39,959 bases of DNA from Gammaproteobacteria bacterium (GTDB taxonomy: Bacteria; Pseudomonadota; Gammaproteobacteria; GCA-001735895), in the NCBI GenBank assembly GCA_029862005.1, contig JAOTYD010000030.1, positions 1 to 39,959 of the forward strand. The letters run 5' to 3'. A program made the position numbers and the translations under genes. Positions within the stretch are counted from its first letter, which is position 1. Every line of letters starts with the position of its first letter. Below are positions 5,639-39,021 of this stretch, piece after piece. A model generated the notes under the pieces. That model worked only from the letters and a program-made list of their open reading frames with translations, searched no databases and was not told where the DNA came from.

Positions 5639-7477
5639 ATGAATCCGTTAAAGGCGCCGTTGAACGAATCAGAAATCAGGCAGACGGTCAGCGTGGTTAG
5701 ACGCGACGCCGGACTGGATGATTCCGCCTGGTTCGAAACCGTCAGCCTCGACGAATCTGATCGATTTTCGGGGCAACGCAGCGTATACGTTTGCTGCTAC
5801 GAGCCCGCCAGCAACCGTACGCTGGCTGGACTGGTTGTTCTCGAAACCGATGCGTTACATGACTGGCATCATGTCGAGGGTGTCCAGGCGCGCATTGTGC
5901 CCGACGAATTTGTCATGGCCTGCGAACTGGCGCGGCAGGATCGGCGTTTTCTCGCTGCATTGAAGAAACGCGGCCTCGACGATGCTTCGAGAGTACTGAT
6001 TGAAAGCTGGTCCGCAGGAAACTTCGGCAGCCCGGAAGAACAGGATTGTCGCATTGCCTACGGTCATTGCTGGCTGATGAACGATGCTGGTGACAATCCC
6101 TATGCGCGACCAATTGCCAACCTGCATCCAGTGTTCGACCTGGCGAAGCGCGAAATCATTCGTATCGACGACTTCGGCGTGGTGCCGATTCCGCCCGACC
6201 CTGGCCCGATTCGACGCCAGCGACAGCGTAACGACCTGACCGAAATCTCGATCACCCAACCCGACGGACCCAGCTTTGAAGTCGACGATTATCATGTCAA
6301 ATGGCACGACTGGGAACTGCAGGTGGGTTTTGCACAACGCGATGGCCTGGTACTTTACGATATCGGTATCCATGATAAGGGTCGGCTGCGCCCACTCATG
6401 AAACGTGCCTCGATGGCCGAGATGGTGGTTCCCTATGGCGACCCGCGTGACGCAAATTTTCGCCGCAACGCCTTCGATACCGGTGAGCACGGAATTGGCG
6501 TTTCGCTCGACTCGCTCGCGCTCGGCTGTGATTGCCTGGGACATATTCATTACTTCGACATCTGGACCCACGACTGGCACGGAGAACCGCGCCTGATCAA
6601 GAATGCGGTCTGCATGCACGAGGAAGATTACGGAATCCTGTGGAAATACTCGGTACCCTCGGCGCAGCAAGCTACAGTGACACGCTCGCGCCGACTGGTA
6701 GTCTCGTCACTCGCAACGATCGGCAATTATGTCTATGGCTTTTTCTGGTACTTTTACCTGGATGGGACCATCGGCGTTGAAGTCAAGGCAACCGGCATTC
6801 CGTTTCCATCCGCGCTCGAGAACGGCAAACCGAGTCCTTACGGCCGTCATATTGGCAATCAAATCGAATCGCACGTGCATCAGCACGTGTTCAGTTTTCG
6901 TTTCGATATGGCAATTGACGGCGAACGCAATTCCGTCAGTGAAATCAATTTCTCTGCAGCACCCGCTGGTGACTCCAATCCTTACGGTAATGCTATCCAC
7001 ACCAAGGAAACGCGTTTTACCACTGAGCTGCAGGCACAGCGAGAAATCGATGCGCGTGCCTCCCGCTACTGGCGCGTGCTCAATCCCGATGTCCACAACT
7101 GCCATGGTGAACCGGTTGCCTACAAGTTGCTGCCCGGGACCAACAGCTTTCCGTTTCAACAACCGGATTCTTCGATCGGTCAACGCGCCGCCTTTATGTA
7201 TAAACATCTGTGGGTGACTCGCTACGCCGCCGACGAACTCTACCCTGCCGGCTGGTTTCCGAATCAGCATGCGGGCGGCGATGGATTGCCGAAATGGACC
7301 CAGGCCGATCGCGACATCGACAATGAAGACATCGTGGTCTGGCACACGGTCAACTATCACCACTGGCCAAGACCCGAGGACTGGCCGGTGCAGCCCGTGG
7401 TTTATGCCGGCTTTCACTGGATGCCGGACGGATTTTTCGACGAAAATCCAACCATGGACGTGCCGCGCAAGTCCTGA
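5639..7477 (+). CDS. Copper-containing primary amine oxidase (TPQ family)
   Basis: The product is 612 residues, close to cytosolic bacterial copper amine oxidases (about 640), and has no signal peptide. The family oxidises primary amines to aldehydes with release of NH3 and H2O2, using topaquinone made from an active-site Tyr. Catalytic positions are all present with the expected spacing: base Asp280 (FDTGE), TPQ precursor Tyr364 (TIGNY), copper ligands His414 and His416 (HVHQHVF) and His575 (HHWPRPEDWP). The residue after the TPQ tyrosine is Val365 where Asp or Glu is normal. An AGGATAG site precedes the ATG. Likely substrates are tyramine, phenethylamine or similar amines. The neighbouring amidase and sulfatase suggest catabolism of small nitrogen or sulfur compounds. 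Confidence 0.93.
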   Translation: MNPLKAPLNESEIRQTVSVVRRDAGLDDSAWFETVSLDESDRFSGQRSVYVCCYEPASNRTLAGLVVLETDALHDWHHVEGVQARIVPDEFVMACELARQDRRFLAALKKRGLDDASRVLIESWSAGNFGSPEEQDCRIAYGHCWLMNDAGDNPYARPIANLHPVFDLAKREIIRIDDFGVVPIPPDPGPIRRQRQRNDLTEISITQPDGPSFEVDDYHVKWHDWELQVGFAQRDGLVLYDIGIHDKGRLRPLMKRASMAEMVVPYGDPRDANFRRNAFDTGEHGIGVSLDSLALGCDCLGHIHYFDIWTHDWHGEPRLIKNAVCMHEEDYGILWKYSVPSAQQATVTRSRRLVVSSLATIGNYVYGFFWYFYLDGTIGVEVKATGIPFPSALENGKPSPYGRHIGNQIESHVHQHVFSFRFDMAIDGERNSVSEINFSAAPAGDSNPYGNAIHTKETRFTTELQAQREIDARASRYWRVLNPDVHNCHGEPVAYKLLPGTNSFPFQQPDSSIGQRAAFMYKHLWVTRYAADELYPAGWFPNQHAGGDGLPKWTQADRDIDNEDIVVWHTVNYHHWPRPEDWPVQPVVYAGFHWMPDGFFDENPTMDVPRKS

Positions 7478-7532
7478 ACAGGATATCAAAGTCCGCAAGG
7501 AACAAGCTGGGTTCACTCGCGATGGTCGAGCC

Positions 7533-26950: not shown

Positions 26951-27790
26951 ATGGACTTCAAAAACATACTGATTCACCTGGATCACAGCAGCGGTTGCCA
27001 AAACCGATTGACAACTGCGTTCGATCTCGCAAAAAAATTCAGTGCAAAGCTTAACGGATTGTTCGTGGTCCCGGATTACGTCGTGCCTTCCTATGTCGAA
27101 GCCCAGATCAGCGTCGACCTGATTACCGACGTTACCGAAAAGGCGATCGCCCGCGCCCAGGAGAAACTGGCCGAGTACCAAAAGCTCGCCGACGATGCCG
27201 GGGTTTCCATGCAGTCCCAGGTCGTCGAGGGACAGGTCATCCCGATTTTGCGCGAACACTCAAAGTACGCGGACCTGTTAATGTTGGGTCAGGATCAGCC
27301 TGACGATCCCGACAATGCAAGTTACGGACTCGCCGATGCACTGCTGTTTGAAGGTGGCTGCGCCTGCCTCGTGGTGCCGCACAGTGGCAAACTCGCGGCC
27401 CCGGGGAAACGGGTTCTGCTTACCTGGAACGCGAGCCGGGAATCAGCACGTGCGTTGCGTGAGGCAATGCCGTTTCTGACCCGTGCCGAGTCAGTCGTGG
27501 TGTTGTCTTCGGAGCCTGACGACGGTAATGAGGATATCGCGCGCGGTCATCCCCATGCACAGGAACTATCGAGGTTCCTCGAATCCCACGGGATTGAAGC
27601 GGTTTCCAGCGGTATCAGCGACCCGGATATCAGCGCCAGCGACGCAATCATCGGACAGGCTGCCGACATGAACGCCGATTTGATCGTGATGGGTGCTTAC
27701 GGGCACGCCAGATTGCGCGAGATTATACTCGGCGGGGTAACCCGTGATTTATTGAAGCAGTCGTCAGTCCCGCTGTTACTCGCCCACTAG
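26951..27790 (+). CDS. Universal stress protein with two Usp domains
   Basis: The product is 279 residues: two tandem Usp folds (about 1-140 and 150-279). The second ends with the nucleotide-binding G-x2-G-x9-G pattern (GAYGHARLREIILGG). GGAGAAGGG precedes the ATG. Such tandem proteins are induced by anaerobiosis in pseudomonads under Anr control, in keeping with the perfect FNR box. Its stop overlaps the convergent dioxygenase stop by four bases. Confidence 0.95.
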   Translation: MDFKNILIHLDHSSGCQNRLTTAFDLAKKFSAKLNGLFVVPDYVVPSYVEAQISVDLITDVTEKAIARAQEKLAEYQKLADDAGVSMQSQVVEGQVIPILREHSKYADLLMLGQDQPDDPDNASYGLADALLFEGGCACLVVPHSGKLAAPGKRVLLTWNASRESARALREAMPFLTRAESVVVLSSEPDDGNEDIARGHPHAQELSRFLESHGIEAVSSGISDPDISASDAIIGQAADMNADLIVMGAYGHARLREIILGGVTRDLLKQSSVPLLLAH

Positions 27791-28641
27791 CTACCGGCCT
27801 GCTGATTAAAGAAAGAAGCTCCCTCGGGAATCTCCGGATTTTCCATATCGAAGGCCACCGAGCGAATGCGCCCGGGGTCATTGCCATGCACTATCTTGCC
27901 GCAATAAACGCTGGGCACCGCGCAGGGCACCAGTGGTATCGCGTCTGCTGCAGTCAAGGTTGCGATATAAAGGGTGCGCGGTCGCTGTGTCAGGTTCTCC
28001 GATGAAGCGTGCAGCGCACGGGTGTGCATCAGGCACAAGCTGCCGGCAGGGCCCAGGCACTCCACCGCTTTAGTATCACACTCCGCGGCCAGCGCATCGT
28101 CTACCGCGCCGGTAAACTTCCCGCCATGCCACAGCGAGTGCAGCGGCCCGCGGTGCGAACCTGGAACCACCCGCGCGGGACCAATATCGCTGTCGATGTC
28201 ATCGAAAAACAGCATCGCGGTGATGCAATCATCGTTGCTGTGTGGATCAAAAGTGAAATCCTGGTGCCATTTCACCGTGGTACCACTGCCCGGTAATTTG
28301 CTGTTGAGCTTGGCGTGATGAAAGCGCAGGTTTTCACCCAGCAGGTCGGCAACAGTCTCGAGCAGGGGTCCCTGCTCTAACAGGTTCAAAAATTCGGTCG
28401 AGATTTCCTCGGGAGAGGCCACGCGTCGCAATGCGGGCTTTTCGGCACTATGAACCGGTTCCACATCGAAACGCGGTCGACCATCCAGCATTTCACCGAA
28501 CGGCCCATCATGCTGGCGTGATTCTTCGATCCAGCGCAAGTGCTGCTGACGCACCGGCTCGAGGTCCGTATCCGAATACGCCGCCTCCACCACGACCACC
28601 CCGCGCTCCCAAAACTCAGCTTGCTGCGCTTCACTCAACAT
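27787..28641 (-). CDS. Phytanoyl-CoA dioxygenase (PhyH) family protein
   Basis: The product is 284 residues. The Fe(II)/2-oxoglutarate site is H126-x-D128 (WHQDFTF) with a distal His211 (HASSEN) and an Arg at 222 for 2-oxoglutarate binding (QRPR). The family hydroxylates diverse small molecules; no substrate can be inferred. The palindromic repeat region lies directly upstream, separating it from the ureohydrolase gene read in the same direction. Confidence 0.9.
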   Translation of the reverse strand: MLSEAQQAEFWERGVVVVEAAYSDTDLEPVRQQHLRWIEESRQHDGPFGEMLDGRPRFDVEPVHSAEKPALRRVASPEEISTEFLNLLEQGPLLETVADLLGENLRFHHAKLNSKLPGSGTTVKWHQDFTFDPHSNDDCITAMLFFDDIDSDIGPARVVPGSHRGPLHSLWHGGKFTGAVDDALAAECDTKAVECLGPAGSLCLMHTRALHASSENLTQRPRTLYIATLTAADAIPLVPCAVPSVYCGKIVHGNDPGRIRSVAFDMENPEIPEGASFFNQQAGS

Positions 28642-28718
28642 AACATATTATTCTACCCCTAAATCCTACTCCCGGTCCCAGAAAAAAAAGCAAGCTTAAT
28701 TAAAAAATGGCCACTAAC

Positions 28719-28829
28719 GGCGCGGTCATCGGATGTTTCTCGCGGGATCGCTGTAAATACATCCATGTAGGCTCGCGCGCAACATCCCTGTTGCGCAGCG
28801 TCCCGCAAGAAACATCCGATGCCCACGCC
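28719..28829. repeat. Long imperfect palindrome with nested hairpins
   Basis: Arms 28719-28747 and 28801-28829 are inverted repeats (29 bases, about four mismatches). The 53-base centre holds two smaller dyads: TACAT-CC-ATGTA (28758-28769) and GCGCAACA-TCCC-TGTTGCGC (28777-28796). Both share the core ACATCC-N-TGT. It is probably a dispersed palindromic element of the REP/MITE kind; no transposase is nearby. Confidence 0.85.
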
Positions 28830-28919
28830 TCAATATTTAGAATATCTCAGAAGAGAGACTAGGCATGGATGGAGCAAACTTATTTGTTTAAATCCATCTG
28901 CCAAATTACGAAAACTCCA

Positions 28920-29049
28920 CCCACGCTGGGAGATTGCCTGCAAAAGTGTAGCGCGGCAGGGACGCCACGCTTCAAGCGATTCCATGGATGGACCAATCGG
29001 CGCTCGCGCCGATTGGCAGCGTCTTTTGCAGGCAATCTCCCAGCGTGGG
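28920..29049. repeat. Second palindromic element, perfect 27-bp inverted repeat
   Basis: Positions 28920-28946 and 29023-29049 are perfect reverse complements over 27 bases. Inside is a further dyad, 28993-29003 with 29006-29016 (CCAATCGGCGC, TC, GCGCCGATTGG). With the preceding element it fills most of the 444-base gap between the PhyH gene and the ureohydrolase gene. Short open frames across it are not credible genes. Confidence 0.88.
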
Positions 29050-29085
29050 CAAGGCCTGGTGCCGCTAAGGTAAATGCACAGTGAT

Positions 29086-30093
29086 TTACGGTTTTCCTGT
29101 AGTGCGGGTGCTGTCGGCGATTAGGCTGAGGATTTCGAACATGACCACGGAGGCGAAATGCGCGGTTTGCTTATTGGGGTGATCCTTGGTCGGCATCAGG
29201 CAGACCACGTCACCGCCGATGATGTTCTTGCCACGCACGCAGCGCAGTAACTCCATCACTTCATCGACCTGGAAACCCTGGATACCACACTCGAGATTGG
29301 CCACGCCGGGGCATATGGTCGGATCCATGCAGTCCAGGTCAAAGGTGATGTAAAGCGGCGTATCGCCGATACGATCATTGATTAACTCCATCGTTTTCTG
29401 CGGCCCCAGTTCACGGTAACGCTTGATCGGCACCACTTCGTAACCCAGGTCGGAACTGGTTTTCCACCAGTCGAGGGTGCGCGGATTGCCGCGCATACCG
29501 ATTTGCACGCTGTGCGCGCTATCAATATAGCCGTCCCGCACCAGGTAAGCCGCCCAGTGTGCCGCGGATTTTACCGCGCCGAGAAAATGCGGCACCTGCT
29601 CGTAGGCGTCGGTGTGTGCATCAAAATGCAGGAAGGCTGCCTTGCGTCCACCCGTCAGCCTGGCCTTGTCACCGGAGATAGCCTGCATGATGCCGCCGGT
29701 GACCGCGTGATCACCCCCGATCGATACGGGTCGCGTGCCCGCTGCATCGATTGCATTATAAAAATCGGTAATTCGCTCGATGCAGCGCTCATTGTCATTC
29801 GCCTCCGGCAGGGGCACGTCACCCATGTCGCCGATGCGACAACTTTGCCACGGGTCGACCTGGAATTCGATGTGCACGCGCCGCGCCATGGCCGAAACAT
29901 CCCGCACCGCGCGTGGCCCGAGGTGCTGATCGCGCTCGGTGGTGCCGTTGCCGGTCGAATGGGGGACGCCAACCAGCGCAATATCGAGCATTGCCGGATC
30001 GCGTTCGATCGGGCACCTGAACAAGGTCGGAATATCCCACCAGTAAAGTCCTTCCAGCATCATCCTGTCTTCGGCAGATAGGTTCTCGCTCAT
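29086..30093 (-). CDS. Ureohydrolase (agmatinase/guanidinoalkanoate hydrolase family)
   Basis: The product is 335 residues with the complete arginase-family dimanganese site: H129 (GGDHAV), D158/H160/D162 (HFDAHTDAY) and D252/D254 (TFDLDCMDP). The N-terminus YWWDIPTLFRCP matches the loop of agmatinase-like guanidino hydrolases. It would split a guanidino compound into urea and an amine. Candidate substrates are agmatine, guanidinobutyrate or guanidinopropionate; the sequence does not decide. It is followed on the same strand, 18 bases upstream, by the second PhyH gene, so both may be one operon. Confidence 0.9.
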   Translation of the reverse strand: MSENLSAEDRMMLEGLYWWDIPTLFRCPIERDPAMLDIALVGVPHSTGNGTTERDQHLGPRAVRDVSAMARRVHIEFQVDPWQSCRIGDMGDVPLPEANDNERCIERITDFYNAIDAAGTRPVSIGGDHAVTGGIMQAISGDKARLTGGRKAAFLHFDAHTDAYEQVPHFLGAVKSAAHWAAYLVRDGYIDSAHSVQIGMRGNPRTLDWWKTSSDLGYEVVPIKRYRELGPQKTMELINDRIGDTPLYITFDLDCMDPTICPGVANLECGIQGFQVDEVMELLRCVRGKNIIGGDVVCLMPTKDHPNKQTAHFASVVMFEILSLIADSTRTTGKP

Positions 30094-30111
30094 GTTAAAT
30101 TCCTCGGTGAT

Positions 30112-30942
30112 TTAGTAGGCCCGCTTTTGAGGCGCACCCTGGTACAGGATGTCGGCCCAGTTACGGTTCGCTTTTTCGCGCTCGTTAACGCCCTCGGGAT
30201 CCATATCGGATCGGGGTCGTTTGAGGGTTACAAAATCCGGCTGCAAACAGTTGCCCCGTATCGGCAGCCAGTAATTGTCGCCCAGTGTCTGGCGCGCTCC
30301 GGCAGGCATATAGGCCTGCAACGCGAAGCCGACACGGCGCTGATGGCTTCGATTGGGTTGTGACCCATGGATTACTCTCGCGTGGTGAAGCGACATTTGC
30401 CCCGGTTTCAGAATCAGATCGACGGCAGTGGATTCATCGACGCCCTGAATCTCCTGCCCGCGGGTCAAAATATTGTCTTCGTGAAATGTCTCCAGGTGGG
30501 GCCGGACCGGATCTTGATGGCTACCCGGGATCATGCTCATGCACCCGGTTTCGCGGTTGCTCTCGGTAAGTGCGATCCACGCCGTTACATAATTATGCGG
30601 TGTAATCCCCATGTAGGTTGCATCCTGGTGCCAGCTCACAAAGTGACTGCTTTGCGGTTCCTTGATAAACAGCACGCTGCCCCATAGCGAAAAATCTGTA
30701 CCGACCAGGTCCTCGACCGCATCCAGGATGACCGGATGGTGTGCGAGCTCATCCAAAAACTTAAAGGCCAGATGCGCGTTATTGCGATTCTCGGCATTCA
30801 GCTGTTCAGGATACTCCTCCTCCGCGGCCCTCAGCTTTTGCTCGTAGTTGATCGCCTCGTCCACGGAAATCAAATCGACCGGTGCGACAAAACCGTCGTC
30901 ACGATATTGATCGATCTGTTGCTGAGACAGTACTGTTCCCAT
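30112..30942 (-). CDS. Second PhyH-family dioxygenase
   Basis: The product is 276 residues. Iron ligands are H105-x-D107 (WHQDATYMG) and H192 (HGSQPNRS), with a downstream Arg for 2-oxoglutarate. The pattern resembles aliphatic/ectoine-type hydroxylases only in these general motifs. It is probably co-transcribed with the ureohydrolase, which suggests both act on a guanidino or amide compound. Divergent from the small gene at 31031. Confidence 0.88.
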   Translation of the reverse strand: MGTVLSQQQIDQYRDDGFVAPVDLISVDEAINYEQKLRAAEEEYPEQLNAENRNNAHLAFKFLDELAHHPVILDAVEDLVGTDFSLWGSVLFIKEPQSSHFVSWHQDATYMGITPHNYVTAWIALTESNRETGCMSMIPGSHQDPVRPHLETFHEDNILTRGQEIQGVDESTAVDLILKPGQMSLHHARVIHGSQPNRSHQRRVGFALQAYMPAGARQTLGDNYWLPIRGNCLQPDFVTLKRPRSDMDPEGVNEREKANRNWADILYQGAPQKRAY

Positions 30943-31030
30943 GGCACCAATGACCCGTCAATTGGGATTCAGCAGATAGTAGCGTAAACTCGCGTCGGAT
31001 AAATAGCAGAAATAATTATTCGTGTAACCG

Positions 31031-31234
31031 ATGAAAAAACTCGACAAAAAAACCCTGCTGGGCATTCGCGATCAGTTTGGCAGTTACGCCTGGGATGACG
31101 CCGAGATTTCGGAGCTGGTGGATCCAAAGCTTGGCATCATTACCGGCTTTCAGGAGTTACTCGACCAACTCGAGATACTGCGCAAGATTGATCTCGAAGC
31201 AACGCCCCCGGCTGGCGATATATCCCCGAAATGA
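31031..31234 (+). CDS. GatC-like small partner of the following amidase
   Basis: The product is 67 residues, helical, ending IDLEATPPAGD, which resembles the C-terminal region of GatC, the small subunit that wraps the GatA amidase. Its stop overlaps the amidase ATG (ATGA), so the two are translationally coupled. AtzE-type amidases are known to need a GatC-like small subunit (AtzG); this pair looks similar in layout. The similarity is short and I treat it as moderate. Confidence 0.7.
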   Translation: MKKLDKKTLLGIRDQFGSYAWDDAEISELVDPKLGIITGFQELLDQLEILRKIDLEATPPAGDISPK

Positions 31235-32592
31235 CCGGATCACTGGCCTTCGCATCGATCGGCGAACTATCCACCAGCCTGCGTAACCGTGAGATCAGCG
31301 CTCTCCAGCTAGTCGATCTCTATGCGGACCGAATCGGACGCCTCGGTACGACCAGCCACGCTTTCATTTCTAATGATATTGAACGCGCGCGCGTACGGGC
31401 CGAGACGATTGACCTGAATTTCGACGAAACCCTGGCGCTCAATGGCATACCTTATACCTGCAAGGACTTGTACGATGTAAAGGGCCTGGTGACCACGGGC
31501 GGTTCACAGGTGCTGCAGGATAACCTGGCACAGGAAGATGCCGCGGCGGTCAAGCGCATGGACCGGGCCGGCGCCATTTTCATCGGCAAGAATAACCTGC
31601 ACGAATTTGCCTACGGCGCGACCGGTGAAAATACACTCTACGGGACACCGCCTAACCCGTATGACCACTCACGTTTAGCCGGTGGTTCGAGTAGCGGCTC
31701 GGCTGCCGCGCTCGGATTCGGCCTCTGCGCCGCCGCGCTTGGCACCGACACCGGCGGGTCGGTGCGTGCACCCGCGGCAATTTGCGGACTGGTTGGTTTC
31801 AAACCGACCTTCGGGCGCGTCAGTACCGAGGGCGTTATCCCCTACTCCTGGACCCTTGATCATATCGGTACCCTGACCCGTAGCGCTGCCGATGCCGGGC
31901 TGTTATTCGAGTCACTGGCAGCGCAGCACCGGCCCACTGAATCCAAGGGGCTTGATCAGCTCACCGTCGGTGTTCCGGACGCTTTCTTTTTTGAACGTTG
32001 CGACAGCGAAATTCTCGACAGCGTCGACGCATTGATGAACTTCTTACGCGAGGCAGGTGCGAATCTAAAACCGGTTGCCATGCCTTCGATGGAATACACC
32101 CGCACGGTGTCGCTAACGGTACAAATGCCAGAAGCATTGTCATACCACAGCCGCTACCTCGAGCAGTGGGGGCATTTATACAGCCAGGACTTTCGCGCCG
32201 GGCTGGCGCTGGGCCAATGCCTGCTCGCCGAGCAATATATCCGCGCCAGGCGCTTCATCGAAACCTATCGCAACACCATGCACCAGGTATTTGCAGGGAT
32301 CGACGTAATACTAACGCCGGCAACCCCGGTGATTGCGCCGAAAATCGGGGTGATCGAAGTGACGGTGGACGGACATGCCGAGCCCGCCGGCAACGCGATA
32401 ACCCGGTACACTTCTTTCTTTAACATGACCGGGCATCCGGCGATTACGCTGCCCTGCGCCATGCACTCCGAGGGTTTGCCGATGGGAGTCCAGTTAGTCG
32501 GTAAACACTTCGGAGACGAGCAATTGATCGATATCGCGCATCAGATCGAAACTGGCTACGACTTCGAATTGCCTCTGCCAGATCTGGATTAG
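31231..32592 (+). CDS. Amidase (GatA/AtzE-like)
   Basis: The product is 453 residues. The triad is Lys78 (YTCKDLYDV), Ser153 in GGSSSGSAA and Ser177 in GTDTGGSVRAP, with the spacing seen in GatA (75 and 24). No gatB gene is present, so this is unlikely to be the tRNA amidotransferase. It more likely hydrolyses an amide or biuret-like compound with the GatC-like partner. Divergent from the PhyH/ureohydrolase genes, it suggests a nitrogen-compound degradation cluster. Confidence 0.9.
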   Translation: MTGSLAFASIGELSTSLRNREISALQLVDLYADRIGRLGTTSHAFISNDIERARVRAETIDLNFDETLALNGIPYTCKDLYDVKGLVTTGGSQVLQDNLAQEDAAAVKRMDRAGAIFIGKNNLHEFAYGATGENTLYGTPPNPYDHSRLAGGSSSGSAAALGFGLCAAALGTDTGGSVRAPAAICGLVGFKPTFGRVSTEGVIPYSWTLDHIGTLTRSAADAGLLFESLAAQHRPTESKGLDQLTVGVPDAFFFERCDSEILDSVDALMNFLREAGANLKPVAMPSMEYTRTVSLTVQMPEALSYHSRYLEQWGHLYSQDFRAGLALGQCLLAEQYIRARRFIETYRNTMHQVFAGIDVILTPATPVIAPKIGVIEVTVDGHAEPAGNAITRYTSFFNMTGHPAITLPCAMHSEGLPMGVQLVGKHFGDEQLIDIAHQIETGYDFELPLPDLD

Positions 32593-33828: not shown

Positions 33829-34299
33829 TTATCCACACAGTCGAGGGCCTCCCCCTTCGCTGGCGTTTTTACCGTAAACCATGCGCTCGATTCCGGCCCA
33901 GTACGCCGCCGCCTCGCACATAGGGCAAGCGGGTGAAGATGAATAAAGCGTGCAGCGACTTAAATCACGCGAACCGAGGCGACGAGCTGCGTCCCGAATG
34001 GCCTCCATCTCGGCGTGCGCGGTAGGATCACGATTGATTACCACGCGACTCGGAGACTGACCAACGATTCTGCCATTACGAACCACGACAGCACCATAGG
34101 CCTGATCACCGCTGTCAATCGCCCGCCTTTGCATGCCGAAGGCCCGCGCGATAAATGTCGCATCATCGCTTCGTTCGGGCTGTTCAATCGAATCTGCCTG
34201 GGTCTCGCTCGCGATGCCATCGCGACCGGCGACTAGCGTAACAACACCCGCCAGGCCAAGCATCAGTTTTCGTCTTTTCACGTCTGCGGGTTTATCCAT
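33829..34299 (-). CDS. Cytidine/deoxycytidylate-type deaminase with Tat-like N-terminus
   Basis: From ATG 34299, which has GGGGG five bases upstream, the product is 156 residues; an ATG at 34311 lies before that site. The zinc site is H95-AE97 (AHAEMEAI) and C125-PM-C128 (SPACPMCEA), that of the nucleoside deaminase superfamily (guanine/cytosine deaminase-like). Unusually the N-terminus VKRRKLMLGLAGVVTLVAG looks like a twin-arginine export signal, so the enzyme may work in the periplasm. Substrate not assigned. Confidence 0.82.
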   Translation of the reverse strand: MDKPADVKRRKLMLGLAGVVTLVAGRDGIASETQADSIEQPERSDDATFIARAFGMQRRAIDSGDQAYGAVVVRNGRIVGQSPSRVVINRDPTAHAEMEAIRDAARRLGSRDLSRCTLYSSSPACPMCEAAAYWAGIERMVYGKNASEGGGPRLCG

Positions 34300-34328
34300 G
34301 ATTGCCCCCATCCCAATTATTCGTCCAG

Positions 34329-34418: not shown

Positions 34419-34583
34419 ATGGGAGAATGTCCGATATGTGCGGCCGACGTCGAAGTGGCCGACGACGCGATTTCTGGCGAGTTACTGGTCTGCGGTGACT
34501 GCGGTGCCGAACTTGAATTGATTAATATGGATCCGGTTAAACTGGCCGAAGCGCCTTCGGCCGAAGAGGACTGGGGGCAGTGA
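34419..34583 (+). CDS. lysW: LysW-type amino-group carrier protein with C-terminal Gln
   Basis: The product is 54 residues, the same length as Thermus LysW. It has the zinc pairs C4-x2-C7 and C25-x2-C28 ([16 protein letters not shown]), the conserved N-MDP-V-KL stretch and an acidic tail ending EEDWGQ. In LysW the last residue is Glu (EDWGE), whose side-chain carboxyl LysX joins to the substrate's amino group. Here codon 34578-34580 is CAG, so Gln54 takes its place. A single C-to-G change would give Glu. The gene is too short for usual gene-finding cut-offs. Its stop overlaps the lysX GTG. It heads the operon, and the carrier would shield and present the amino acid to the later enzymes. Confidence 0.95.
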
Positions 34584-35416
34584 AGATCGGCCTGCTGCAT
34601 TCGCTGATTCGAAAAGAAGAAAAACTGCTGATCGAGGCGTTTCAAAAAGCCGATGTAGAGCCGATCATGATCGATGATCGCCAGCTGATCATGGATTTTC
34701 ACAGCGCGCCCGATATTGACATCCTGGTCGAACGTTCTATCAATCATTCACGTGCGCTACACGCGCTGCGCCTGTTCGAGAGCGCCGGGGTGTGCTGCGT
34801 CAATTCCCACAAAGTCGCGCAAATTTGTGGTGACAAACTGCTGACCACCGCGGCCCTCAAGGACCACGGTATCGCACAGCCCGAGTGCCGGGTCGCATTT
34901 ACCGAGGAATCGGCACTCGATGCGATCGAGGAACTGGGCTACCCGGTGGTCCTGAAACCCGCAGTTGGATCCTGGGGCAGACTGCTGTCCAAGATCAACG
35001 ATCGCGATGCCGCCGAGACGGTGCTCGAACACAAGACCGTACTCGGCAGCTATCACCATTCAATTTTTTATATTCAACAATACATTGAAAAACAGGGGCG
35101 CGATATCCGCAGCTTCGTGGTCGGCGACGATTGTATCGCTGCAATATACCGCAGCTCGGATCACTGGATCACAAATACTGCGCGCGGTGCGCAGGCCAGT
35201 AAATGCGAGGTGACGTCCGAGGTCGCCGAAATATCGCTGGCCGCGGCAAAAGCCGTCGGTGGCGGGATTGTCGCGGTCGACCTGTTTGAAAGCGATGGCG
35301 GCCTGTTGGTCAACGAAGTCAACTACACGATGGAATTTCGCAACAGTATCGACACCACTGGCGTCGATATTCCGCAGGTCGTCGCGAATTACGTCGTTGG
35401 CCTGGTCAGGCAATGA
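34580..35416 (+). CDS. lysX: LysX/ArgX-type ATP-grasp ligase
   Basis: The product is 278 residues starting at GTG 34580, which shares bases with the lysW stop. It is an RimK-type ATP-grasp: [13 protein letters not shown] at 126-138, the ARGA segment at 201-204, and the metal-binding [19 protein letters not shown] at 245-263. The phrases SWGRLL and N-x-TMEF-x-NS match LysX, not RimK. The reaction is ATP-dependent ligation of alpha-aminoadipate or glutamate to the LysW C-terminus. Which substrate is used cannot be told from these motifs. Confidence 0.93.
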
Positions 35417-36435
35417 TAAAGGTATCGATTGTCGGCGCCTCGGGCTATACCGGCGGCGATTTACTGCGCATCCTGTTGTTCCATACGCAGGTCGAAATTC
35501 AGCAGGTGACGTCGGAACGTCACGCAGGCAAGCTGGTTTCGAGCGTGCATCCCAACCTGCGTAAAATCTGTAAACACAAGTTTATCCCGATTGCTGAACT
35601 GGAGCCCTGTGACGTGCTGTTCCTGGGATTACCGCACGGGCAAATGATGAACCGCCTCGGTGAATTCGAGAACCTGGCCGAAACCCTGATCGATTTATCC
35701 GCCGACTTTCGCCTGCGCGACAGCAGCGCCTTTGAAAAATGGTATGGCAAGGCGCACGATTGCCCGCAAAAACTGGCTGATTTTGTCTACGGTATTCCCG
35801 AACTTCACCGCGCTGAAATGAAAGACGCCCGGCGTATCTCGGGCGCCGGCTGTAATGCCACTGCTACCATACTTGCGCTGCATCCGCTCTACCAGGCCGG
35901 CGTGGTCGAATCCGCGGTGGTCGAGGTTAAAGCCGGTTCCAGCCAGGGTGGCAACGCGGTCAACGAGGGCAGCCACCATCCGGAACGCAGCGGCGCGGTG
36001 CGTTCCTACAAACCGACCGCACATCGCCATCTCGGCGAAATTCAGCAGGAACTGGGCGCCGATAACATTCATTTCTCCGCCACCTCGATCGAGATGGTAC
36101 GTGGCATCCTGGCGACCTGTCATGTCTTCCTGAACCAGGATCTGCAGGAAAAGGATATCTGGAAGATATACCGCGGCGCCTACGGCGACGAACCCTTTAT
36201 TCGTATCGTCAAGGAACGCAGCGGTATTCACCGATACCCGGAACCGAAAATTCTCGCCGGCAGCAATTACTGCGACATCGGCTTTGAACGTGATCCTCAA
36301 AGTAATCGGCTGGTGGTCATCAGCGCGCTGGATAACCTCGTCAAAGGCGCGGCCGGCCAGGCAGTACAGGCATTCAACATTGCGCAGGGATTCGACGAGA
36401 CCACGGGCCTCGAATTTCCTGGATTGCACCCCTGA
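35413..36435 (+). CDS. lysY: LysY, LysW-acyl-phosphate reductase (ArgC family)
   Basis: The product is 340 residues. Residues 5-15 ([11 protein letters not shown]) are the NADP loop; the catalytic Cys147 lies in [11 protein letters not shown]. It carries [17 protein letters not shown] and ends EFPGLHP, both very close to Thermus LysY, whose loop reads the LysW carrier. It reduces the acyl phosphate made by LysZ to the semialdehyde. Its ATG overlaps the lysX stop (ATGA). That a LysW-type reductase sits here, and not an ordinary ArgC, supports the carrier pathway. Confidence 0.94.
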
Positions 36436-36447
36436 ATTCGAACCGTC

Positions 36448-37083
36448 ATGTGCCGCATCCTCTACGTACGGGCCGAGACGCCATTTCAAATTGCCGATAT
36501 GCTCACGCCGTTCGCGGGACTATCGCGCACTAGTCGAGAATTCCAGGGGCACGGCTGGGGTTGCGCCTGGTGGGAACAGGATGGCTGGCATCAACACCAC
36601 GACATTCGCCCGGTCTGGGAAGACGACCTGGCGCAATTCGGCAGCACCCGCCTGTTGCTGGCACATGCCCGCAGCGCGTTTCGCGATGAGGGTATCGTCA
36701 TCGAAAATAACATGCCCTTCTCGGATGGCGAATCGGTTTTCATTTTCAATGGTGAGCTGCGTGGCGTTCGCATCAAGTCTGACGGCCGCATCGGCGCTGA
36801 AAAAATCTTTAACTATATCCGTCGCTTCGATAAGGGCGACAAATGTGCCGCTACCGCCAGGGCCGTCGAAATCATCAACAAGCGCAGTGCCTACGTGCGC
36901 GCGATGAATATCATCCTCTCTGATGGAGAACAATCGTGCCTGTCTACCAGTTACAGCGAAGATCCCGATTATTTCCAGATGTACCAAAAACATGACGGCA
37001 ACCTGCACCTGGTATGCTCGCAACCTTTTCCGGGTGACCAGGACTGGACCCGAATCGATAACAACACGACAACCGAACTATGA
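36448..37083 (+). CDS. Class II glutamine amidotransferase (Ntn hydrolase) inside the lysW operon
   Basis: The product is 211 residues, a free-standing amidotransferase domain. Cys2 follows Met1, as required once the Met is removed, to be the N-terminal nucleophile. HARSAF (Arg75) and FIFNGE (Asn101-Gly102) are the glutamine-binding and oxyanion positions of the class; NNMPF stands where NHPF is usual. It is nearest in build to YafJ/EgtC-like proteins, which hydrolyse gamma-glutamyl amides. It lies between lysY and lysZ, overlapping lysZ by ATGA, so it belongs to the pathway. No LysK-type zinc peptidase is present, so it may free the product from LysW or convert Gln54 to Glu. Both are inference. 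Confidence 0.88.
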   Translation: MCRILYVRAETPFQIADMLTPFAGLSRTSREFQGHGWGCAWWEQDGWHQHHDIRPVWEDDLAQFGSTRLLLAHARSAFRDEGIVIENNMPFSDGESVFIFNGELRGVRIKSDGRIGAEKIFNYIRRFDKGDKCAATARAVEIINKRSAYVRAMNIILSDGEQSCLSTSYSEDPDYFQMYQKHDGNLHLVCSQPFPGDQDWTRIDNNTTTEL

Positions 37084-37874
37084 TGCTGATAAAAATTGGT
37101 GGCGGCGAGCAGATCAACCTCAAAGCCGCGATTGCAGACCTGGCGACACTGGAGCAGCCATTTATTATCGTGCACGGCGCCAATGTATTACGTGACCGGC
37201 TGGCGCAACAGCTGGGCATGGATAAAACCGTGCTGACCTCGGTCTCGGGTTATGCCAGTGTTTTTTCCGATCAAAACGCTATCGATGTCATCATGATGAG
37301 CTACTCGGGTCTGCGCAACAAGCAGATCGTCGAACTGTGTCAAAGCAATCAAATCAACGCAGTGGGCCTGACCGGTCTCGATGGTCGCCTGGTTCAGGGC
37401 GAGCGTAACAAGGGTATCCGGGTGCGCGAAAATGGTAAAACCCTGATCAAGCGGGACCTTTCGGGTAAGCCCCGCGCCATCAATACCGAATTAATGCAAC
37501 TACTGCTGGACAACGGCTATTGCCCCGTGCTGACGATACCCATTGTCGACGAAAACGGATTTGCGATTAACTCGGAAAACGATGATATCGTCGTCAAACT
37601 TGCCAACGCTCTCGATATCGATACCGTCATTCAGCTGATTGAAGCGCCCGGTTTCCTCGATGATCCCAACGACGAATCAACGCTGGTCACCCGCATGAGC
37701 ATCAGTGAACTGCAACAGCGCGAAGCCGGCGTCGAAGGTCGGATCAAGCGCAAACTACTGGCGCTATCACGACTCTGCGAGGAGGGTAAGACCACCGTTA
37801 TCATTGCCGATGGTCGTAGCGATCAACCCATTATCAGTGCGCTGGACGGCGCCGGGACTCATATTTATGACTGA
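37080..37874 (+). CDS. lysZ: LysZ, LysW-amino acid kinase (ArgB family)
   Basis: The product is 264 residues of the amino-acid-kinase fold: MLIKIGGGE at the start, IIVHGAN, GLTGLDGR, INSENDDI and KRKLLALSRLCEEG before a final IADGRSDQPI. GLTGLDGR and GRIKRK match LysZ. It phosphorylates the side carboxyl of the carrier-bound amino acid with ATP. ATG 37080 overlaps the stop of the amidotransferase; a second ATG follows at 37083. Confidence 0.93.
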   Translation: MMLIKIGGGEQINLKAAIADLATLEQPFIIVHGANVLRDRLAQQLGMDKTVLTSVSGYASVFSDQNAIDVIMMSYSGLRNKQIVELCQSNQINAVGLTGLDGRLVQGERNKGIRVRENGKTLIKRDLSGKPRAINTELMQLLLDNGYCPVLTIPIVDENGFAINSENDDIVVKLANALDIDTVIQLIEAPGFLDDPNDESTLVTRMSISELQQREAGVEGRIKRKLLALSRLCEEGKTTVIIADGRSDQPIISALDGAGTHIYD

Positions 37875-39021
37875 TTACAAAGCCCTCGAACACGAGTATG
37901 GCGTGCCCTTGCAGGCGAAGCGCGACCTGGTTGCGATACGCGGAAAAGGAGCCTGTCTCTACGACGAGGAAGGCCAGGAGTATATCGATTGCGCCGCGGG
38001 TATCGCGGTCGCATCGCTCGGGCACTGCCATCCAAAACTGGTTGCGGCGATCCAGCAGCAGGCGGAAACGCTGATTACCTGCCCCAACATCATGTATAAC
38101 GACGTGCGCTCGAAGTTGCTCAGGAAACTGGTCGAAGTGACTCCGAACAGCCTGACCCGCGCCTACCTGTGCAACTCGGGTGCCGAGTCGATCGAGGCTG
38201 CGCTCAAGTTCGCACGCCTGCATACCGGGCGCAGCAACTTTGTTACCGCGATGCGCGGCTTTCACGGTCGTACCATGGGCGCCGTCAGTGCCACCTATAC
38301 GCCAAAGTATCGCGAGGCGTTTCAGCCACTGGTTCCCGGTTTCGAGTACGTGCCCTTCAACAAGATCGATAAACTTGATGCCGCCGTCAATGATAATACC
38401 GCGGCGGTCATGTTCGAGCTGGTACAGGGTGAAGGTGGCGTCAATCCGATCCAGGCTGATTACTTGGCGGCGGTGCGCAAGCTCTGCTCCGAGCGCGGTA
38501 CATTATTGATTATCGATGAAATCCAGACCGGCTTTTGCCGCACCGGCCAATTCTTTGCCTGCGATCATTTTGATTTGCAACCCGATATCATGTGCGTGGC
38601 CAAGGCAATGGCCGGCGGGGTGCCCATTGGCGCAACCCTACTCAATTCCGAGATTAATATCGAGCCCGGGTTGCATGGCACAACCTTCGGCGGCAATCCG
38701 CTGGCATGCGCCGCGGCCCTGGCCGCAATCGACATCTACCAGACGGATAACCTGGCGCAACGGGCCGCGGAACTGGGTGAGTATTTCGAAGAGCAACTGC
38801 AAGTTGCCGATCTGTCCCAGGTGCGCGCACTGCGCCGACTCGGCCTGATGATTGGCATCGAGCTCAAGCAAAAAGTGCAGGACAAGCTGGCCGAGCTGCT
38901 GGCGCATCGCATCATTGCGTTGCCGGCCGGCCCGAATGTCATCCGCATGCTACCGCCATTGATCATCGAGAGGGATCAGATTGACCAGGTCGTCAATACA
39001 CTACAAGAATTGTTGGCATAA
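37867..39021 (+). CDS. lysJ: LysJ, LysW-aminoadipate/glutamate semialdehyde aminotransferase (ArgD family)
   Basis: From ATG 37867 the product is 384 residues; the frame open to 37705 lies inside lysZ. It is a class III PLP transaminase: [39 protein letters not shown], and PLP lysine Lys246 (CVAKAMAGG). It would transfer the amino group to the carrier-bound semialdehyde, giving LysW-lysine or LysW-ornithine. Its start overlaps the lysZ end by eight bases. It is the last gene of the operon. Confidence 0.93.

Follow-up and report, generated by a model that had tools for sequence, protein, structure and literature searches.

A conserved C-terminal glutamine in the amino-group carrier LysW and an operon-encoded EgtC-like hydrolase that may both convert it to glutamate and replace LysK

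The window analyzed here, by which we mean the whole stretch of 39,959 nucleotides of a gammaproteobacterial contig, carries a LysW-pathway operon whose genes lie in the order lysW, lysX, lysY, EgtC-like hydrolase, lysZ, and lysJ, all on the forward strand; four of the five gene boundaries are short overlaps. The first gene, lysW (34419–34583), codes for a 54-residue amino-group carrier that ends in EEDWGQ and scores over the cut-offs of both PF21344 (64.5 bits; cut-off 27) and TIGR01206 (57.6 bits; cut-off 53.2). It is followed by lysX (34580–35416), coding for an ATP-grasp ligase (TIGR02144, 340.3 bits; cut-off 275.6) that keeps the motifs GSWGR and HWITNT, the latter of which we take to be of the Thermus LysX type, and by lysY (35413–36435), coding for an argC-like reductase (TIGR01850, 390 bits; cut-off 233.6). 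The fourth gene (36448–37083) codes for an EgtC-like class II Ntn hydrolase (GATase_4, 24 bits; cut-off 23), which is a candidate LysW deamidase and product-release enzyme. The last two are lysZ (37080–37874), coding for [LysW]-aminoadipate kinase (NF010659, 241 bits; cut-off 223), and lysJ (37867–39021, its start picked by comparing relatives), coding for a class III aminotransferase (TIGR00707, 447 bits; cut-off 410) that scores 452 bits against NF042418, under the cut-off of 700. No lysK is present in the operon of the window.

In 17 of 19 further contigs of the genus, the hydrolase gene, complete or partial, has the same position between lysY and lysZ; the other two (L029 and L039) end before it. 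One genus relative (L038) has an additional gene between lysZ and lysJ, and where the reading extended past the operon, the gene that follows it in most relatives is, judged by eye, presumably a PEP carboxykinase gene, the exceptions being L037 and L038. Upstream of lysW in the window is a divergent deaminase-like gene (33829–34311, reverse strand) with a MafB19-deam/dCMP_cyt_deam match and, by eye, a possible export signal; it also precedes lysW in 12 of 19 genus relatives, some of whose contigs end before this position. A further upstream group (27787–32592) includes an AtzE-like amidase gene (31231–32592) with a small open reading frame before it, an agmatinase-like gene (29086–30093), and two reading frames that by eye resemble Fe/2-oxoglutarate dioxygenases.

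Translation and the profile cut-offs confirm what a preliminary description of this DNA had reported for LysW, namely 54 residues, zinc motifs, the tail EEDWGQ, and a final CAG codon. The zinc ribbon is complete, with two CxxC motifs (CPIC and CGDC), and the EEDWG of the tail is retained; residue 54, the position of the substrate-bearing C-terminal Glu in LysW proteins, is encoded as Gln. The 3′ end of lysW reads ctggggCAGTGA, with CAG (34578–34580, forward strand) as the final sense codon, followed by TGA. The last G of CAG also opens the GTG start codon of lysX at 34580, such that the lysW stop and the lysX start share a four-base overlap. We considered whether this overlap forces codon 54 and rejected the idea, since it fixes only the last G, would accommodate GAG equally well, and does not account for the C. 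A search of 57 genomes detected LysW in 20, comprising 20 of 31 in the window's genus (its own included) and 0 of 26 outside it. All 20 proteins end in EEDWGQ and all 20 genes use CAG at codon 54, and the Gly codon that precedes it varies (GGG in 6, GGT in 7, and GGC in 7).

The C-terminal Glu of LysW is reported to be indispensable as the attachment site, with arginine required by an E54A mutant of the homologue in Natrinema, and Glu-ended carriers are loaded on the γ-carboxyl (PMC10433800). In the accessible portion of a second paper (PMC9303977), carriers are described with a C-terminal Glu only. We found no mention of "EDWGQ" in the open PMC literature and no related paper there on LysW together with an amidotransferase; in one open PMC paper on LysW and Nitrosopumilus, the passages searched held no match to "C-terminal" or "glutamine."

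Scanning a species-genome collection for GAR-GAY-TGG-GGN-CAR-TGA returned at least 120 stretches, and because the pattern admits only TGA as the stop and only GAR-GAY ahead of TGG, the counts are lower bounds. Among the 120 stretches listed, 90 contain LysW frames ending in EDWGQ, 15 of them bacterial and 75 archaeal, the latter mostly from ammonia oxidizers or Thaumarchaeota; many of the surveyed genomes are MAGs. Six of the 15 bacterial stretches are from the window's genus (L055, L107, L131, L139, L151, and L156), and the nine others are from Calditrichia (L042), Acidobacteria (L045 and L090), Arenicellales (L070 and L143), Holophagae (L105), Gammaproteobacteria (L115 and L154), and KSB1 (L140). 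In two of the 30 remaining stretches (L058 and L082) a LysW gene is truncated by the stretch end, and no zinc ribbon is present in the other non-LysW stretches among L040–L119, the range that this check covered (six more lie in L120–L159). An oddity confined to one genus is thus rejected by the Gln tails found in other bacteria and in archaea, and the Gln-for-Glu change in LysW is real and widespread.

An AlphaFold2 model of the hydrolase (mean pLDDT 93.1) has EgtC as its nearest solved structure (4zfl; Z 26.0, rmsd 1.8, 198 aligned residues), with GlmS (Z 21.8) and PurF (Z 20.6) also matching. The hydrolase therefore has the EgtC fold, although it scores 49.1 bits against the EgtC equivalog TIGR03442, far under the cut-off of 218.65. 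Residues 2–211 of the 211-residue protein align to the Ntn fold and the chain has no partner synthase domain, so that no ammonia-using partner is attached. All 25 members of the hydrolase group match only the EgtC model in NCBIfam (E 0.01), and in Pfam 16 match GATase_4 and 16 match GATase_6; no curated family in either collection names the group. Cys1, Arg73, Asn98, and Gly99 (GlmS numbering) are kept in all 25 aligned members, and the Asp123 site, residue 116 in the window's hydrolase, is Gly in all 25, the residue being Asp in GlmS, PurF, and YafJ, which are the enzymes compared at this site (EgtC is not among them). In class II glutamine amidotransferases, Arg73 binds the α-carboxylate of glutamine and Asp123 its α-amine. 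At the C-terminal residue of a protein the α-carboxyl is free but the α-amine is not, and the residue pattern of the hydrolase thus fits residue 54 of LysW.

The preliminary description had proposed asking whether LysW homologues ending in Gln co-occur with the class II amidotransferase, and in bacteria they nearly always do: among the stretches listed, eight of the nine non-genus lineages found by the tail alone have the hydrolase. It was detected in the genomes of L042, L045, L090, L105, L070, L115, and L143 and is present at the L154 locus; three of the eight lineages supplied rows for the search profile, which was built from those of the window, L045, L070, and L143. The ninth lineage is a KSB1 MAG (L140, G415; LysW-Gln at 7286–7483) with no hydrolase match in the genome and no lysX within 390 bases 3′ of LysW.

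Among 297 Acidobacteriota genomes, the hydrolase is present in nine (E 1e-30) and LysX in 35, and all nine are within the 35. Five of the genomes with both end LysW in Gln (G401, G420, G425, G417, and G613) and three in Glu (G677, G421, and G711), the tail of the remaining one (G447) being unread; the 26 genomes with LysX and no hydrolase match at E 1e-30 gave no Gln tail and 23 Glu tails, with three unread. The association of Gln tail and hydrolase in Acidobacteriota has a Fisher p of 0.0003, uncorrected for kinship; among kinship-independent pairs on the LysX tree, the link agrees in zero to two of four pairs and is opposed in none, which is not significant with so few pairs. A class-level LysX search matched 5 of 369 genomes, three of them in the window's genus, and two class-level relatives found via LysX alone (G128 and G248) combine the hydrolase with a Glu tail. 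Together with G677, G421, and G711, these make five Glu-tailed operons that keep the hydrolase. The preliminary description had regarded relatives that all encode Glu while still carrying the amidotransferase as telling against deamidation; what we find is that some relatives encode Glu and those in the genus all encode Gln.

LysK (TIGR01902) is over its cut-off in none of the 22 bacterial hydrolase genomes tested (21 plus G447). In the window's genome (G000), which is 97% complete, the best M20 match has 67.3 bits against a cut-off of 163.1. Weaker M20 peptidase matches are found in all 26 genomes searched for them (21 bacterial hydrolase genomes and five archaeal), with four in the window's genome; these four could act as LysK. 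Among the 35 Acidobacteriota genomes with LysX, LysK is over the cut-off in none of the nine with the hydrolase and in 23 of the 26 without it (12 outright and 11 by adding up partial matches within one frame; Fisher p 3e-6, uncorrected for kinship). The four genomes below the cut-off among 27 further Acidobacteriota are G479, G489, and G546, with no hydrolase match, and G447, with the hydrolase. Because the hydrolase is kept in Glu-tailed operons, and LysK is below cut-off there, it probably serves mainly to release the product.

A 74-row LysX alignment was divided into hydrolase operons with Gln (31 rows) or Glu (5 rows) tails, Glu-tailed LysK operons (20 rows), and archaeal Gln (8 rows) and Glu (6 rows) carriers, with four rows belonging to none of these groups. 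GSWGR, at residue 130 in the window's LysX, is present throughout the five groups (70 rows), and no column separates the Gln from the Glu hydrolase operons. In one pair, L045 (Gln) and L181 (Glu), LysX differs at 11 of 275 sites and the hydrolases have 192 of 212 residues in common. The GSWGR motif is reported to recognize EDWGE (PMC10433800). We therefore reject an altered LysX suited to Gln, with no separating column and GSWGR universal in the compared groups. Judged from these alignments, LysX most likely meets the same residue on both kinds of carrier, that is, Glu after deamidation; with LysX unaltered, Gln54 probably must turn into Glu before loading.

On a careful LysX tree (71 rows), the rows with the hydrolase fall into a single branch (support 100/99) interrupted only by L201 (G479), whose LysX lies inside the hydrolase clade; its operon has a Glu tail and no hydrolase, and LysK scores 99.9 bits, below cut-off. 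Tail changes among the hydrolase rows number at least three on this tree and four on a quick tree, and the hydrolase label requires two and four changes, respectively. Gln and Glu tails thus interchange among lineages sharing the hydrolase. The careful tree leaves out three long rows (L188, with the hydrolase and a Glu tail, L060, and L104); both trees leave out the repeat genomes L202–L204 as well as L042 and L189, in which LysX is incomplete, and the 14 archaeal LysX rows were chosen from a larger number found.

LysW matched 131 of 151 archaeal genomes, and we read 30 loci chosen for likeness to a Gln-ended query, by which choice the ratio of 25 Gln to 5 Glu tails is biased. The bacterial co-occurrence does not extend to this domain: the hydrolase is absent from all seven archaeal LysW-Gln genomes tested, and LysK (TIGR01902) is over the cut-off in all five tested for it. 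The hydrolase is therefore unnecessary for Gln tails in general. Eight archaeal loci (L048, L077, L081, L083, L085, L100, L111, and L120) have two LysW genes: the first ends in GEDWGE and adjoins one LysX, and the other ends in GEDWGQ and in seven loci adjoins a second LysX (the L077 stretch ends before any second LysX). In L085 the pair is at 408–602 and 6219–6389, and the Gln-ended gene is preceded by a homocitrate/isopropylmalate synthase-like gene and followed by LysX2 and, by eye, a peptidase-like gene; in L113, LysX2 is followed by the gene that scored as LysK in G411. If deamidation occurs in archaea, LysK is an obvious candidate for it.

As to what the operon makes, the window's genome has lysA (523 bits; C29:38407–39624) and a canonical argB over cut-off (251 bits; C41:17012–17728), and thus need not rely on the LysW operon for either lysine or arginine. 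Homocitrate synthase (TIGR02146) is over its cut-off in none of 21 genomes tested; matches below the cut-off include operon genes of G420, G421, G677, and G401. In the loci from Calditrichia (L042) and Acidobacteria (L045), a homocitrate-synthase-like gene, likewise below cut-off, lies between lysW and lysX. We found no lysA match in G401, G420, and G425, and the operon is thus probably their lysine route.

From the conserved Gln, the operon, the co-occurrence in bacteria, the LysK scores, and the fold and residues of the hydrolase, we infer that LysW is its substrate, and we put at about 60% a Pup/Dop-like arrangement in which this one Ntn hydrolase converts Gln54 to Glu and also frees the product from LysW, replacing LysK. 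In a pathway of lysW, lysX, lysY, hydrolase, lysZ, and lysJ, the stand-alone EgtC-like enzyme would take the place of LysK and cleave γ-amide bonds at the C-terminal residue of LysW. Newly made LysW-Gln54 would be hydrolyzed once, to Glu54 and ammonia; LysX would then load the substrate on Glu54, and as the last step of each cycle the hydrolase would cut the finished amino acid off Glu54. Deamidation and release would be one reaction with differing leaving groups, as in Pup/Dop, and if the release enzyme also deamidates, codon 54 in this lineage could specify Gln or Glu interchangeably. The suggestion of the preliminary description that LysW is deamidated by the amidohydrolase of its operon accordingly keeps part of its ground, with Gln conserved, a class II Ntn enzyme in the operon, co-occurrence in bacteria, and an unaltered LysX; it does not hold as a simply dedicated deamidase, the enzyme being kept with Glu tails where LysK is below cut-off, and in archaea Gln is not tied to the enzyme.

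The alternative that survives best, which we consider unlikely, is that the hydrolase only releases product, and that another enzyme or a slow self-reaction deamidates Gln54, exchange of Gln and Glu being near neutral. Retention of the hydrolase in Glu-tailed operons without LysK over cut-off agrees with this, as does the tolerance of Gln tails by archaea without the hydrolase, but among the Acidobacteriota tails read, Gln occurs solely where the operon has the hydrolase (0 of 23 otherwise), it is kept in 20 of 20 LysW genes of the genus, and a γ-amide hydrolase active at residue 54 should cut Gln too. A dedicated LysW deamidase, with product released by an unrecognized M20 peptidase encoded elsewhere in the genome, is improbable: four weak M20 matches (best 67.3 bits) are available in the window's genome, but five operons in which LysW is already encoded with Glu retain the gene, and LysK exceeds its cut-off in 0 of 22 hydrolase genomes.

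Two further alternatives leave LysW-Gln without hydrolytic deamidation. RimK joins residues at a C-terminus by a peptide bond, and LysX, a member of the RimK family, might likewise attach the substrate to the α-carboxyl of Gln54, which is free, the Gln side chain never being used. This is decidedly improbable, since the same LysX serves Gln and Glu carriers (11 differences in 275 sites in the pair above and no separating column) and Glu carriers are reported to be loaded on the γ-carboxyl (PMC10433800). The hydrolase might instead act as a transamidase, with Gln54 as acyl donor and the substrate amine replacing ammonia, such that ATP is unneeded; direct exchange of this kind had been raised in the preliminary description. 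Ntn Cys enzymes of this class operate via a thioester, which would suit such an exchange, but LysX with GSWGR is kept in all 31 Gln-hydrolase rows, where it would be idle, and Glu tails could not function in this way; we regard it as very improbable. The remaining suggestion, a one-base sequencing error or a decayed carrier, is refuted by CAG in 20 of 20 genus genes amid synonymous changes and by LysW ending in EDWGQ in 90 of the 120 pattern stretches listed.

Conservation of Gln in a bacterial clade and in ammonia-oxidizing archaea suggests a maturation step absent from the pathway as drawn, and the EgtC-like enzyme that we favor as both deamidase and release enzyme is a candidate for this step and for the missing LysK. 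If so, its annotation as a "glutamine amidotransferase" is functionally wrong, and pathway models report a false LysK gap. More tentatively, and with the odds somewhat against it, we speculate that the Gln tail is a licensing device in two domains, an inactive Gln carrier being switched on by its own emptying enzyme (the EgtC-like hydrolase in bacteria and perhaps LysK in ammonia-oxidizing archaea, where the tail would separate two routes). In chemoreceptors a working Glu is encoded as Gln, and, were licensing true, a metabolic carrier would join the short list of such proteins, which also includes Pup.

The operon resembles the LysW/ArgW pathway of Thermus, Sulfolobus, Thermococcus, and Natrinema in the zinc ribbon, the EDWG tail, the LysX-Y-Z-J set, and the GSWGR of LysX; it differs in having Gln for Glu, LysK below cut-off, and, between lysY and lysZ, a gene for an EgtC-like Ntn hydrolase. 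LysK, an M20 metallopeptidase, has a fold unrelated to the Ntn hydrolase fold, but the step proposed for the hydrolase, product release from LysW, is the same. The LysW pairs of ammonia-oxidizing archaea likewise include a carrier ending in EDWGQ, but there a second LysX and LysK adjoin it, an E-ended paralogue lies beside another LysX, and the tested genomes have no hydrolase. EgtC of ergothioneine biosynthesis, which is reported to release γ-linked glutamate (PMC4621440), is the nearest solved fold and also a stand-alone class II hydrolase, but identity is ~19%, the equivalog score is far below cut-off, and the hydrolase described here is located in LysW operons. A likeness in working is to Pup, whose gene specifies Gln in some species and Glu in others, and which Dop both deamidates and removes from its targets (PMC7947786, PMC12288473): the tails are Gln or Glu by lineage, and a single enzyme would serve as deamidase and isopeptidase. 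Dop has the fold of glutamine synthetase and depends on ATP or ADP+Pi, whereas the enzyme here is an Ntn hydrolase, and the cargo of LysW is an amino acid where that of Pup is a protein; we draw an analogy and do not claim homology.
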